DNA of 55,793 nucleotides from NCBI GenBank assembly GCA_018052735.1, contig JAGPMT010000015.1, positions 1 through 55,793 of the forward strand. The letters run 5' to 3'. The number at the start of each line of letters is the position of its first letter. Position 1 is the first letter of the stretch. The DNA is from Phycisphaerae bacterium (GTDB lineage Bacteria > Planctomycetota > Phycisphaerae > Sedimentisphaerales > Anaerohalosphaeraceae). Both the position numbers and the translations under genes were made by a program. Below the pieces are notes generated by a model. That model made no database searches and was not told the DNA's origin. It saw nothing but the letters and a program-made list of their open reading frames with translations. Positions 44,253 to 55,793 of the stretch are shown piece after piece.

Positions 44253-45792
<1,540 letters not shown>

Positions 45793-49529: not shown

Positions 49530-49997
49530 ATGAAGCAAATAACAGCTATTTTATTGTTGTCGGGCTTATGTATTCTAAGTTCATGTACCAAAGAAGAAGA
49601 TACGGCAAAAGATTTGGCTCGAATGAAAAACTGCCGAGAACTGGTATTTCTACATAACGACGATTACCATGGCAAACCGAAAACCGTTTTTGCTAAAATT
49701 ACGGAACAGGAAAAAATAGATAACATACTTCTTGCCATGAAAAATTCTGAACCTTATGCACCCGCATTGCCGCCTCTGCTTGTATATTCTATCAGAGGCG
49801 TTGGGAAAAACGGTGCAACAAAGCAGGTTAAATTCACTTGGTCGGATGATGCAAAGGCGGTCTTATTTAGCGATAGCCGATCTAAGGATGCCTATCAGCT
49901 TTTTGTGGAGTACAGTATTATCGACCCTTCTGCACCAGTGATAATCGGATATCCTGATCTTAAGGAAGGCGAAGAATTAGAACATGTGAAGAATTGA
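49530..49997 (+). CDS. Small lipoprotein of unknown function
   Basis: This 155-aa protein has a lipobox start (ILLLSGLCILSSC, Cys19) and so is probably anchored in the membrane by lipidation. The mature domain has an alternating charged/hydrophobic pattern (VFAKITEQEKIDNILLAM, QVKFTWSDDAKAVLFS) with no motif I recognise. It begins 11 bases after the large dockerin protein with GAGGGAACAG as ribosome site, so it is coupled to it in an operon. The gene ends nine bases before the truncated 16S begins. Confidence 0.7.
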   Translation: MKQITAILLLSGLCILSSCTKEEDTAKDLARMKNCRELVFLHNDDYHGKPKTVFAKITEQEKIDNILLAMKNSEPYAPALPPLLVYSIRGVGKNGATKQVKFTWSDDAKAVLFSDSRSKDAYQLFVEYSIIDPSAPVIIGYPDLKEGEELEHVKN

Positions 49998-50005
49998 GAG
50001 TTTAC

Positions 50006-50364
<359 letters not shown>

Positions 50365-53626: not shown

Positions 53627-53912
53627 GCCTGTTACCAAATTGTAATGTTGTTACAAAACTGCAACTGACGCCTAAGTCTCTGTTTGTTAAAAACTTCAAT
53701 CCTCTGCCTCCGCCGGTCTGTTACTAAACAGTAACAGGGGCATTTGTTTTCAAGGCGATTGATTTTTGTCCGGCCATTCCATAACTTCTTTTTTTCAAAG
53801 AGGTTATACAATTCTTTCCGGTTTTTTTATAGGTCTGGCACAGCCGTTGTTATAGGAAATACAGAAACGCAGATTTGAAAATAACGCTTACAAGTGAAAA
53901 CAGGACAACAAC
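53627..53912. other. Intergenic region with repeated TGTTAC motifs
   Basis: Three similar blocks begin with TGTTAC at 53630, 53649 and 53719 (general form TGTTAC-N-AAA-N2-G-N-AA). A fourth weaker one lies near 53685. The last forms a perfect inverted repeat (CTGTTACT/AGTAACAG). They could be a protein-binding site array or a terminator hairpin for the upstream gene. Beyond these the stretch holds the candidate sigma-54 promoter at 53836-53851 and little else. Confidence 0.5.
53836..53851 (+). promoter_or_regulatory. Candidate sigma-54 promoter upstream of the receiver-like gene
   Basis: TGGCAC and TTGTT with the exact GG-N10-GT spacing, about 62 bp before the gene at 53913. It is nearly the same sequence as the element before hsp20 (TGGCACAGC in both). 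Confidence 0.45.
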
Positions 53913-54311
53913 GTGTGCCAGATTTATTCGACCATTTTAATTGTCGCAGCACAGGACAAAGCCCAAGCACTTCAGGAATTGCCGCTTCGGCTGCTGATGA
54001 TGGACACCGGCAAAGAGGCCATTCAATGTCTGCGGGAAGAGCAGATCGACACGGTGGTGAGCCGGTGGAATCTGGTGGATATGCCCGAAGGGAAGCTGTT
54101 GGAGAAAATTACGGCCGCACGTTCAAAAATTCCGACTGTGGCCTTCATCGAGCCGGGCAATCAGGAACAGGAAATTATGGCCCGCAGTCTGGGCGTCAGT
54201 GCTATCTTAAGCGACGACATTGATGATGACTACTTTCGAAGTACGGTCTGTCAGATTCTGCACATCGAAGATATTGCAGCGGTATCGGTAGCAGCAGTCG
54301 AGGTGCAGTAA
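53913..54311 (+). CDS. Degenerate response-regulator receiver (pseudo-receiver) protein
   Basis: This 132-aa protein has a CheY-like fold: beta1 STILIVAAQ, a helix, beta3 DTVVSRWNLVDMPEG, beta4 IPTVAFIEPGN and beta5 GVSAILSDDID. The expected phospho-acceptor Asp at the end of beta3 is Arg51 (VVS-R-WN). The Thr/Ser of beta4 is replaced by Phe/Ile, and the Lys of beta5 by Asp. The acidic pair of beta1 is also missing. It therefore cannot be phosphorylated in the normal way and probably acts as a fixed binding domain. The start is a GTG and no other domain is present. It lies just before the structured repeat array. Confidence 0.75.
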   Translation: MCQIYSTILIVAAQDKAQALQELPLRLLMMDTGKEAIQCLREEQIDTVVSRWNLVDMPEGKLLEKITAARSKIPTVAFIEPGNQEQEIMARSLGVSAILSDDIDDDYFRSTVCQILHIEDIAAVSVAAVEVQ

Positions 54312-54341: not shown

Positions 54342-55022
54342 TTGACAAGCTTCATCTTCCATTCTCCTCTCACACAGCGCTGGGCAAGACGGTCAGTGAT
54401 CAGGCAGTTGAGCCCAGCACGACAATAACCGCGGCCTATGCCGCGACGCTATAGAACGGTGTTGTTTGACAATTGAATAGCAAAAGAAGCTTAACGAAAC
54501 TTCTTCATCTCTCTCCTTTCTCGCAAGGGCCTCATCACCCCTTGCACCGCTGGGTTTGGCGGCCGGTGATCGTGCGGTTGAACCCGGCAGGACAATAACC
54601 GCGGCCTATGCCGCGACGCTATAGAACGGTGTTGTTTGACAATTGAATAGCAAAAGAAGCTTAACAAAACTTCTTCATCTCTCTCCTTTCTCGCAAGGGC
54701 CTCATCACCCCTTGCACCGCTGGGTTTGGCGGCCGGTGATCGTGCGGTTGAACCCGGCAGGACAACAACCGCGGCCTATGCCGCGACGCTATAGAACAGT
54801 GTGTTGTTTGACAATTGAATACGAAAGCAAAGAGCTGAAAACATTCTTTTCATCTCTCCTATTCTCCAAGCTGGGTAAGACGGCTGGTGATCTCTTTGGC
54901 CAGTGATCGGGCTGTAGTACCCAGCCGGAATACAATCATCCCCTTTGCGGGGATGCTTATGATACGGCTGCCGGCGACGGTGCGTGCCGGCCGGAGCGGA
55001 GGGCAATGCGGCAGCTCTTTTT
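54342..55022 (+). ncRNA. Tandem array of a ~170-bp structured non-coding element
   Basis: Four units begin at about 54342 (short), 54466, 54636 and 54808. Units 2 and 3 are nearly identical. Each holds a stem GCTGGG...CCCAGC/CCCGGC, the spacer (A/G)GACAATAA, a second hairpin and a GCTATAGAACGG-like sequence. Paired bases change together: unit 1 GCTGGGC/GCCCAGC, units 2 and 3 GCTGGGTT/AACCCGGC, unit 4 GCTGGGTA/TACCCAGC. The second stem is CGCGGC/GCCGCG in units 1-3 but ATCCCC/GGGGAT in unit 4. An extra hairpin GCAAGGG/CCCCTTGC is present in units 2 and 3. Such compensation is what selection on RNA shape produces. I do not recognise a known riboswitch or RNA family. The strand is inferred from the T-rich end. 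Confidence 0.7.
54967..55022 (+). terminator. Terminator-like hairpin at the end of the array
   Basis: GCTGCCG (54967-54973) pairs with CGGCAGC (55009-55015), with an inner GCCGGC stem. TCTTTTT follows. It overlaps the end of unit 4 and could terminate the array transcript. Confidence 0.6.
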
Positions 55023-55071: not shown

Positions 55072-55113
55072 GGGGCCGGCATCAAGATCACTGGCCGATT
55101 TTGGGCCGGCCCC
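55072..55113 (+). repeat. GC-rich hairpin, copy 1 (before PEP-CTERM gene)
   Basis: GGGGCCGGC pairs with GCCGGCCCC. The loop and right arm (ATCACTGGCCGATTTTGG and onward) are identical to the copy at 55749-55789 after the gene. A mild T/C-rich stretch follows. Confidence 0.85.
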
Positions 55114-55192: not shown

Positions 55193-55732
55193 ATGAACAA
55201 ATGGACCGTACTTATTTTGGCTGCGATGGCTGCAGCGGCGTGTGTTCCGGCCGAGGCCGGATTGAAAATCTATGTCAACATCGGCAACGGCTTGTGGGCA
55301 GATTATCCGGACAGCAAGATAACCATTCACCCCAGCGACGTCATTCAAGTGGGCATCATCGATACTGACGGCACGGGCGGAACCGGCGATTTGGCTTTGG
55401 GCATTGCTGTGGGAGCTGCCAGCGGCAGTCTGGATATCAGCCAGGCCGTTTTGTCCGAAGGGGTCAGCGCTGTGCTGACTACCAGCGGAGCCGAACAGTG
55501 GGGAATGCAGTCTCCCTTTGTATCGCTAACCAATACAACCCCGCAGGGAGCGGGCGGCTGGCTTATTCAAAAGATGCTTTTTCACTGTGATGGGCCGGGC
55601 GATGTAACAATCGCTTTGGTAGATAACAACGGCAATATCGTGGATGCACAGGTCATTCATCAGACACCCGAGCCGGCAACGCTGGTGCTGCTGGGATTGG
55701 GCGGGCTGGTTTTAAGAAAGGTTCGGGCGTAA
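55193..55732 (+). CDS. Small PEP-CTERM sorting-domain protein
   Basis: This 179-aa secreted protein has a signal peptide (MNKWTVLILAAMAAAACVPAEAG), a beta-rich mature domain (LKIYVNIGNGLWADYPDSK...) and a C-terminal PEP-CTERM signal: TPEPATLVLLGLGGLVLRKVRA, that is Pro-Glu-Pro, a hydrophobic helix and a basic end. The exosortase system cleaves and sorts such proteins to the surface. No exosortase lies in this window. The mature domain resembles the N-terminal domain of the 1120-aa protein. The ATG at 55193 is chosen for the GGGAGGAAAG ribosome site. The longer open frame upstream overlaps the structured array and is not coding. Confidence 0.92.
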   Translation: MNKWTVLILAAMAAAACVPAEAGLKIYVNIGNGLWADYPDSKITIHPSDVIQVGIIDTDGTGGTGDLALGIAVGAASGSLDISQAVLSEGVSAVLTTSGAEQWGMQSPFVSLTNTTPQGAGGWLIQKMLFHCDGPGDVTIALVDNNGNIVDAQVIHQTPEPATLVLLGLGGLVLRKVRA

Positions 55733-55748: not shown

Positions 55749-55789
55749 GGGGCCGGCTAAAAATCACTGGCCGATTTTGGGCCGGCCCC
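55749..55789 (+). repeat. GC-rich hairpin, copy 2 (after PEP-CTERM gene)
   Basis: Same GGGGCCGGC/GCCGGCCCC hairpin as at 55072-55113. It lies 17 bp after the PEP-CTERM stop and probably serves as its terminator. The window ends just after it. Confidence 0.85.
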
Positions 55790-55793
55790 CTCT

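Follow-up and report, generated by a model that had tools for sequence, protein, structure and literature searches.

A tandem structured RNA family beside a receiver-like gene in Planctomycetes and its predicted pairing with PEP-CTERM ribosome-binding sites

The receiver locus and its four-unit array

The window, that is, the whole stretch of 55,793 nucleotides that was analyzed, carries near its end four related units between a receiver-like gene and a PEP-CTERM gene, as the original prediction had described. Tandem Repeats Finder returned a single array with a period of 170 and a score of 778, and a covariance model (R2) placed the unit starts at 54363, 54533, 54703, and 54854, a spacing of 170, 170, and 151. 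From 5' to 3', each unit (U1 to U4) consists of a pyrimidine-rich strand, a hairpin P1 (GCTGGG...CCCAGC), about 11 nt of linker, a second hairpin P2, and an AU-rich tail. The features are listed below (SD, Shine-Dalgarno sequence; RBS, ribosome-binding site).

53835-53851, + strand: predicted sigma-54-type -24/-12 promoter, CTGGCACAGCCGTTGTT, about 78 nt before the receiver start codon (consensus score 21.0 of 24)
53913-54311, + strand: putative pseudo-receiver gene, 132 aa, the constant partner of the arrays (homologs, Pfam REC, structure model)
54349-54378, + strand: U1, candidate anti-RBS strand GCTTCATCTTCCATTCTCCTCTCACACAGC (duplex energies on the genome's own PEP-CTERM initiation regions)
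54379-54456, + strand: U1, P1 (54379-54418), linker, P2 (54430-54445), and AU-rich tail (R2 match 54363-54456, 54.3 bits, E=4.9e-13)
54499-54524, + strand: U2, candidate anti-RBS strand ACTTCTTCATCTCTCTCCTTTCTCGC, antisense of GAGAAAGGAGAGAGATGAAGAAG (SD, AUG, Lys-Lys; duplex energies)
54523-54545, + strand: extra hairpin GCAAGGG...CCCTTGC between the U2 anti-RBS strand and P1 (sequence)
54549-54626, + strand: U2, P1 (54549-54588), linker, P2 (54600-54615), and tail (R2 match 54533-54626, 57.3 bits, E=7e-14)
54669-54694, + strand: U3, candidate anti-RBS strand, identical to that of U2 (sequence)
54719-54796, + strand: U3, P1 (54719-54758), linker, P2 (54770-54785), and tail (R2 match 54703-54796, 57.4 bits, E=6.7e-14)
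54840-54869, + strand: U4, candidate anti-RBS strand AACATTCTTTTCATCTCTCCTATTCTCCAA, antisense of SD-ATGAAAAGAATG (duplex energies)
54870-54967, + strand: U4, P1 (54870-54925, loop enlarged), linker, replaced P2 (54937-54955), and tail (R2 match 54854-54967, 46.4 bits, E=8.3e-11)
55072-55113, + strand: intergenic hairpin with a 7-nt loop, ACUGGCC, complementary to the P1-loop sequence GGCC(A/G)GU of units (fold -29.4 kcal/mol, loop unpaired)
55193-55732, + strand: PEP-CTERM gene, candidate target, RBS GGGAGGAAAGAAAAATGAAC (PF07589, 22.2 bits versus a cut-off of 20.7)
55749-55789, + strand: second ACUGGCC-loop hairpin, 3' of the PEP-CTERM gene (sequence; contig C55 ends at 55793)

P1 is formed by GCTGGGC and GCCCAGC in U1, by GCTGGGTTTGGC and GTTGAACCCGGC in U2 and U3, and by GCTGGGTA and TACCCAGC in U4. 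P2 joins CGCGGC to GCCGCG in U1 through U3 and is wholly swapped to CATCCCC and GGGGATG in U4, where pairing is kept, in line with the claim that two stems keep pairing while their bases change. A spacer and one strand had also been called constant; this holds for U1 through U3 but not for U4, which has GGAATACAAT and GCTTATGATACGG. The extra hairpin occurs in U2 (54523-54545) and U3 (54693-54715), and U1 and U4 are without it. Folds in the window were only moderately better than those of shuffled sequence (z-scores of -2.7, -1.0, -1.4, and -2.9). U1 and U4 are divergent, but the four units alone prove little because U2 and U3 are nearly identical. A second array was found in the same genome in contigs C43 and C51, with the same repeat at their contig ends. 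A DNA search found no scattered unit copies in this genome, and there was no match in the plasmid collection.

The reading of 53913-54311 as a pseudo-receiver gene is supported by profile and model. Its product matched Pfam REC at E=0.00098, short of the curated cut-off, its AlphaFold model (pLDDT 84) resembled CheY-like folds with Spo0F (6ifh) as the best PDB match, and the alignment reads R at the phospho-Asp position. Directly upstream of the operon lies a gene for a 989-aa right-handed beta-helix protein (PF13229; 50657-53626). The window also holds a full 16S gene (44253-45786) and partial small-subunit rRNA matches (49972-50192 and 50211-50345), the latter a possible second 16S copy, divergent or truncated.

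A structured RNA family of one planctomycete order

A covariance model built from 23 units matched 71 of the 161 genomes of the order, so the family is not confined to this locus. We take the order to be Sedimentisphaerales (Phycisphaerae), judging from the names of the relatives (uncultured Phycisphaerae, one labelled Sedimentisphaerales). Samples of the wider groups were searched with strict filters: 5 of 392 genomes across the phylum were positive, all from the window's own family, and a refined model was positive in 52 of 396 genomes across the class, all inside the order. No family member outside the order was found among these sampled genomes. Rfam gave no match over the window array or 12 related loci, and relaxed thresholds yielded chance-level matches alone, which agrees with the prediction that no known RNA class was present. 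ANTAR-type hairpin pairs were set aside as well, the P2 loops having no fixed six-base pattern when read from the alignment.

Covariation was assessed in three alignments. When the 23 units were aligned without reference to structure, 11 of 16 pairs had changes on both sides (29 cells versus 8.6±2.4 when shuffled), and RNAalifold recovered the same two helices, P1 and P2. Across 127 units, in an alignment fitted to the structure, 97.4% of cells were paired and 249 had changed on both sides, versus 55±15 when shuffled. When 100 non-redundant units were aligned with MAFFT, blind to structure, the top three covarying column pairs were P2 pairs, and ten P1/P2 pairs scored above the maximum of ten column-shuffled controls. 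So did a few pairs inside the pyrimidine strand or between it and P1, probably owing to shared ancestry. P1 and P2 are under selection as RNA structure, as had been proposed from the window, and the units are a real structured RNA family, previously uncatalogued, within one order of Planctomycetes.

A DNA search of relatives recovered arrays behind the same receiver-like gene, homologs of which were present in 63 of the 161 genomes. Most examined homologs were adjoined by units, with the layout kept and the sequence very different. Most units occur in tandem next to a pseudo-receiver gene. In most relatives the array flanks this gene, on one side or on both, behind a sigma-54-type promoter; at most receiver loci the predicted -24/-12 site (CTGGCACGCCATTCGCT and similar) lies 70-110 nt before the receiver start, and where units precede the receiver (L045, L047, L051, L054, and L056) the best-scoring site is found 433-695 nt 5' of it. 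Genes for sigma-54 activators (Sigma54_activat, PF00158) adjoin the operon in several relatives, and none stands directly 5' of the receiver in the window. No sigma-70-type promoter was found near the array. Promoter and activator genes together are consistent with a predicted sigma-54 operon. Runs of PEP-CTERM genes are often among its neighbors. At L066 and L081 the array ends, as read from the sequence, at a strong terminator-like hairpin and T run, followed by an unrelated gene.

Several units without a receiver gene stand near other regulator genes, which counts against the antisense reading proposed below. At L173, L174, L176, L179, L180, and L187, such units lie about 190-460 nt behind genes resembling LuxR/FixJ-type response regulators, an identity given by reading the sequence. 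Four others (L175, L178, L186, and L188) have strong predicted -24/-12 promoters, scoring 22.5-23.5 of 24, and precede a family of 250-257 aa proteins.

Complementarity to PEP-CTERM initiation regions

The pyrimidine strand that precedes P1 lies outside the stems and shows complementarity to the SD-to-AUG region of PEP-CTERM genes. In U2, CTTCTTCATCTCTCTCC is antisense to GGAGAGAGATGAAGAAG, which comprises a Shine-Dalgarno sequence, AUG, and two Lys codons, a typical PEP-CTERM start. We compared the genome's own 24 PEP-CTERM initiation regions with those of 155 other SD-bearing genes, all called crudely from ORF and SD strength. Duplex energies were -22.3 versus -14.3 for the U1 strand (p=9.7e-11) and -21.1 versus -12.3 kcal/mol for the U4 strand (p=2.4e-11). 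The difference shrank to -1.0 (U1) and -2.9 (U4) with shuffled strands, and composition alone was rejected on this basis; part of the effect is nevertheless compositional, since the initiation regions of PEP-CTERM genes are rich in purines. In U2 and U3, the 30 nt immediately 5' of P1 did not discriminate PEP-CTERM genes because the anti-RBS strand there sits further upstream, before the extra hairpin. A longer U2 segment separated PEP-CTERM from other SD genes (p=1.9e-4), and the U2 strand was predicted to pair with one of the genome's own PEP-CTERM genes (L131) at its initiation region, with a duplex energy of -31.4 kcal/mol. With the window strands and the second array pooled, the AUC in the same genome was 0.91 (p=5.8e-11). 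Of the 72 duplexes predicted for the window strands, 70 spanned SD to AUG.

Three genomes showed strong complementarity: the window's own (G000), G071 (main units, p about 1e-6), and G010 (p between about 1e-5 and 1e-2). It was weak in G039 and fell short of significance in G113. The effect in the first three survived controls with purine-rich genes and with genes starting Met-Lys/Arg. Each genome's strands separated its own PEP-CTERM genes best in cross-genome comparison, and the minimum of the mean pairing energy fell in the start-codon window in five of five genomes (-24.3 in the window's own genome versus about -11 elsewhere). The 16S tail sequence did not discriminate PEP-CTERM genes from others, and generic anti-SD action was rejected on this result. 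Complementarity to predicted target RBSs in G000, G071, and G010 goes beyond chance and composition, and such complementarity in a strand outside the stems points to antisense action in trans.

The PEP-CTERM gene in the window is not among the best targets, with duplexes of -12.7 to -18.0 kcal/mol with U1 through U4. A named-genome search with its protein returned no relative, and the same search with receivers gave relatives. Sigma-54-type promoters were not enriched directly 5' of PEP-CTERM genes (0 of 24 in the window's own genome, and 0 of 14 and 0 of 19), so a link from sigma-54 to these genes would have to pass by way of the array.

One group of loci has P1 loops with GGCC(A/G)GUGAUC and an intergenic hairpin with an ACUGGCC loop. 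This hairpin was present in 7 of 7 loci with the P1-loop motif and absent in 18 of 20 without it, a count that ignores relatedness, and some PEP-CTERM leaders repeat the sense motif. GGCCRGU and ACUGGCC may form a second contact, loop to loop. The contig stops right after the second hairpin copy (55749-55793), so further PEP-CTERM genes may lie beyond it; a search of the genome gave no third copy. A cassette-like string was seen at L031 (2388-4999) and L068, in which PEP-CTERM leaders and hairpin trailers are near-identical and about 930 nt apart, and the coding cores of successive PEP-CTERM genes are unrelated.

Proposed antisense action, alternatives, and known systems

From the computed family, structure, covariation, genomic context, and complementarity, we infer that the array is transcribed and cleaved and that its effect has the sign of repression, and consider it fairly probable that the array encodes sigma-54-driven antisense RNAs that occlude the RBSs of PEP-CTERM mRNAs. 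Firing of the -24/-12 promoter would yield one transcript with the pseudo-receiver gene and several tandem units, which would probably be cut in the AU-rich tails into single small RNAs. Each would expose its pyrimidine strand (anti-Shine-Dalgarno and anti-AUG), followed by P1 and P2 as stabilizing hairpins, and the strand would pair with the SD-to-start-codon region of many PEP-CTERM mRNAs and block translation. One promoter could in this way switch off the exported surface proteins of one family as a group. Some relatives may use the module in cis, with a leader unit immediately 5' of PEP-CTERM start codons. The effect on PEP-CTERM translation could also have a sign other than repression. 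Hfq was not found in 8 genomes (incomplete MAGs), and the same search was positive in 5 of 14 control genomes; an Hfq-dependent sRNA was rejected on this result, and any pairing must proceed without Hfq or with another helper. Because simple antisense action would not need the conservation of P1 and P2, that conservation suggests that they may bind a protein or have a processing role as well.

One alternative is a protein sponge. P1 and P2 would bind an RNA-binding protein, possibly the pseudo-receiver, that is also bound by the single units in PEP-CTERM leaders, and the array would titrate it as CsrB does CsrA. Sponge RNAs of the CsrB/RsmZ type titrate a regulator by multicopy hairpins, and those of CsrB carry GGA loops for CsrA. 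The units, also hairpins in many copies, could likewise titrate a regulator, but they do not share the GGA loops. The conserved paired hairpins, with their fixed purine linker and AUAANNAUA tail, the multicopy arrays adjoining one protein gene, and the single cis units that G112 and G113 carry ahead of PEP-CTERM genes are consistent with titration. However, titration leaves unexplained why a strand that is not part of the hairpins fits the PEP-CTERM RBSs of the very genome that carries it, and the receiver is a plain CheY-like fold in which no RNA-binding domain was seen by Pfam or in the structure model. We regard the sponge as unlikely.

The same cis units bear on a second alternative, a tandem leader or riboswitch whose pyrimidine strand closes onto a downstream RBS and regulates the genes behind the units, with or without a ligand. 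In G112 and G113, only 6-19 nt separate the ends of seven single units from PEP-CTERM-type start codons; of the seven reading frames behind them, one enters masked sequence and two close with variant sorting tails. Of 6 leaders folded, 2 had the pyrimidine strand paired to the RBS region, and some arrays continue into PEP-CTERM genes. The cis units partly rescue the leader idea and are also compatible with the sponge. In contrast, most arrays flank the receiver gene, on one side or on both, and some stop at a terminator-like hairpin with an unrelated gene behind it, so riboswitch-like elements before a surface protein gene, as originally predicted, are not the rule; the proposed link to PEP-CTERM genes itself is supported. 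The P1 loop varies in length and sequence with no conserved aptamer-like core and does not look like a ligand aptamer. A riboswitch is mostly not supported, as a conserved aptamer in the 5' leader of a regulated gene was not seen, most units lie outside such leaders, and the G112 and G113 units fit in position only. Control in cis as the main function appears improbable. A third alternative, in which the hairpins are incidental to a DNA repeat, mobile element, or recombination site, might be favored by the tandem copies and by the near-identical intergenic stretches of successive PEP-CTERM genes at L031, which suggest copying or recombination. It is extremely improbable, being largely refuted by the covariation of paired bases, the fixed strand-P1-linker-P2-tail order across very divergent sequences, the fixed promoter, and the lack of scattered copies in the DNA search of the window's own genome.

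The antisense reading can be extended, tentatively and with some doubt, to a single module that serves both as a cis lock before single PEP-CTERM genes and as a tandem trans antisense switch for the whole surface-protein family, with a sigma-54-type promoter, without Hfq, with the pseudo-receiver as a dedicated partner, and with a loop-loop contact (GGCCRGU with ACUGGCC), in one branch, to intergenic hairpins of PEP-CTERM gene strings. The family is new, has no Rfam entry, and belongs to a phylum in which we found little on small-RNA regulation. Antisense action by arrayed RNAs would link a sigma-54-type promoter directly to all members of a PEP-CTERM surface-protein family, in genomes in which no Hfq was found, and the strands appear to follow their targets across lineages. 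The pairing prediction is specific enough for a test by one mutation and a compensating partner.

Sigma-54 (RpoN) has been tied to PEP-CTERM surface proteins in floc-forming proteobacteria, where the PEP-CTERM gene itself depends on RpoN1 (PMC9850573); here, unlike in that system, none of the genome's own 24 PEP-CTERM genes scored with a sigma-54-type promoter. Partial coverage of the literature returned no report joining PEP-CTERM, sigma-54, and small RNA, and none on Sedimentisphaerales and PEP-CTERM. The rhizobial anti-SD RNAs SmelA075 and SmelA099 also have repeated hairpins and an SD-complementary strand, with stems that vary and an anti-SD motif that stays, but theirs is a generic anti-SD motif, CCUCCUCCC, in hairpin loops (PMC3927594). 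The strand here is mostly outside the stems, 5' of P1, covers the AUG and the first codons as well, and differs between lineages in step with its predicted targets. The P1 loops of some units are CU-rich but lack CCUCCUCCC.

A close likeness is to CcsR1-4 and ccaF1 of the CIN1 locus in Rhodobacter sphaeroides, with a DUF1127 RNA-binding partner and an RpoHI/RpoHII promoter (PMC10253847, PMC8625941). In both systems, here as predicted from sequence, an alternative-sigma promoter drives a small-protein gene together with several homologous tandem RNAs that come from the 3' UTR. The putative partner here has a CheY-like pseudo-receiver fold instead of DUF1127, the promoter is of the sigma-54 type, and units also occur upstream of the partner gene and as cis leaders. 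Since both the CCUCCUCCC loop and the DUF1127 partner are absent, the family is not a member of the CcsR/cuckoo-type anti-SD RNAs. On the best reading, the array would work like the alphaproteobacterial CcsR RNAs but is unrelated to them.
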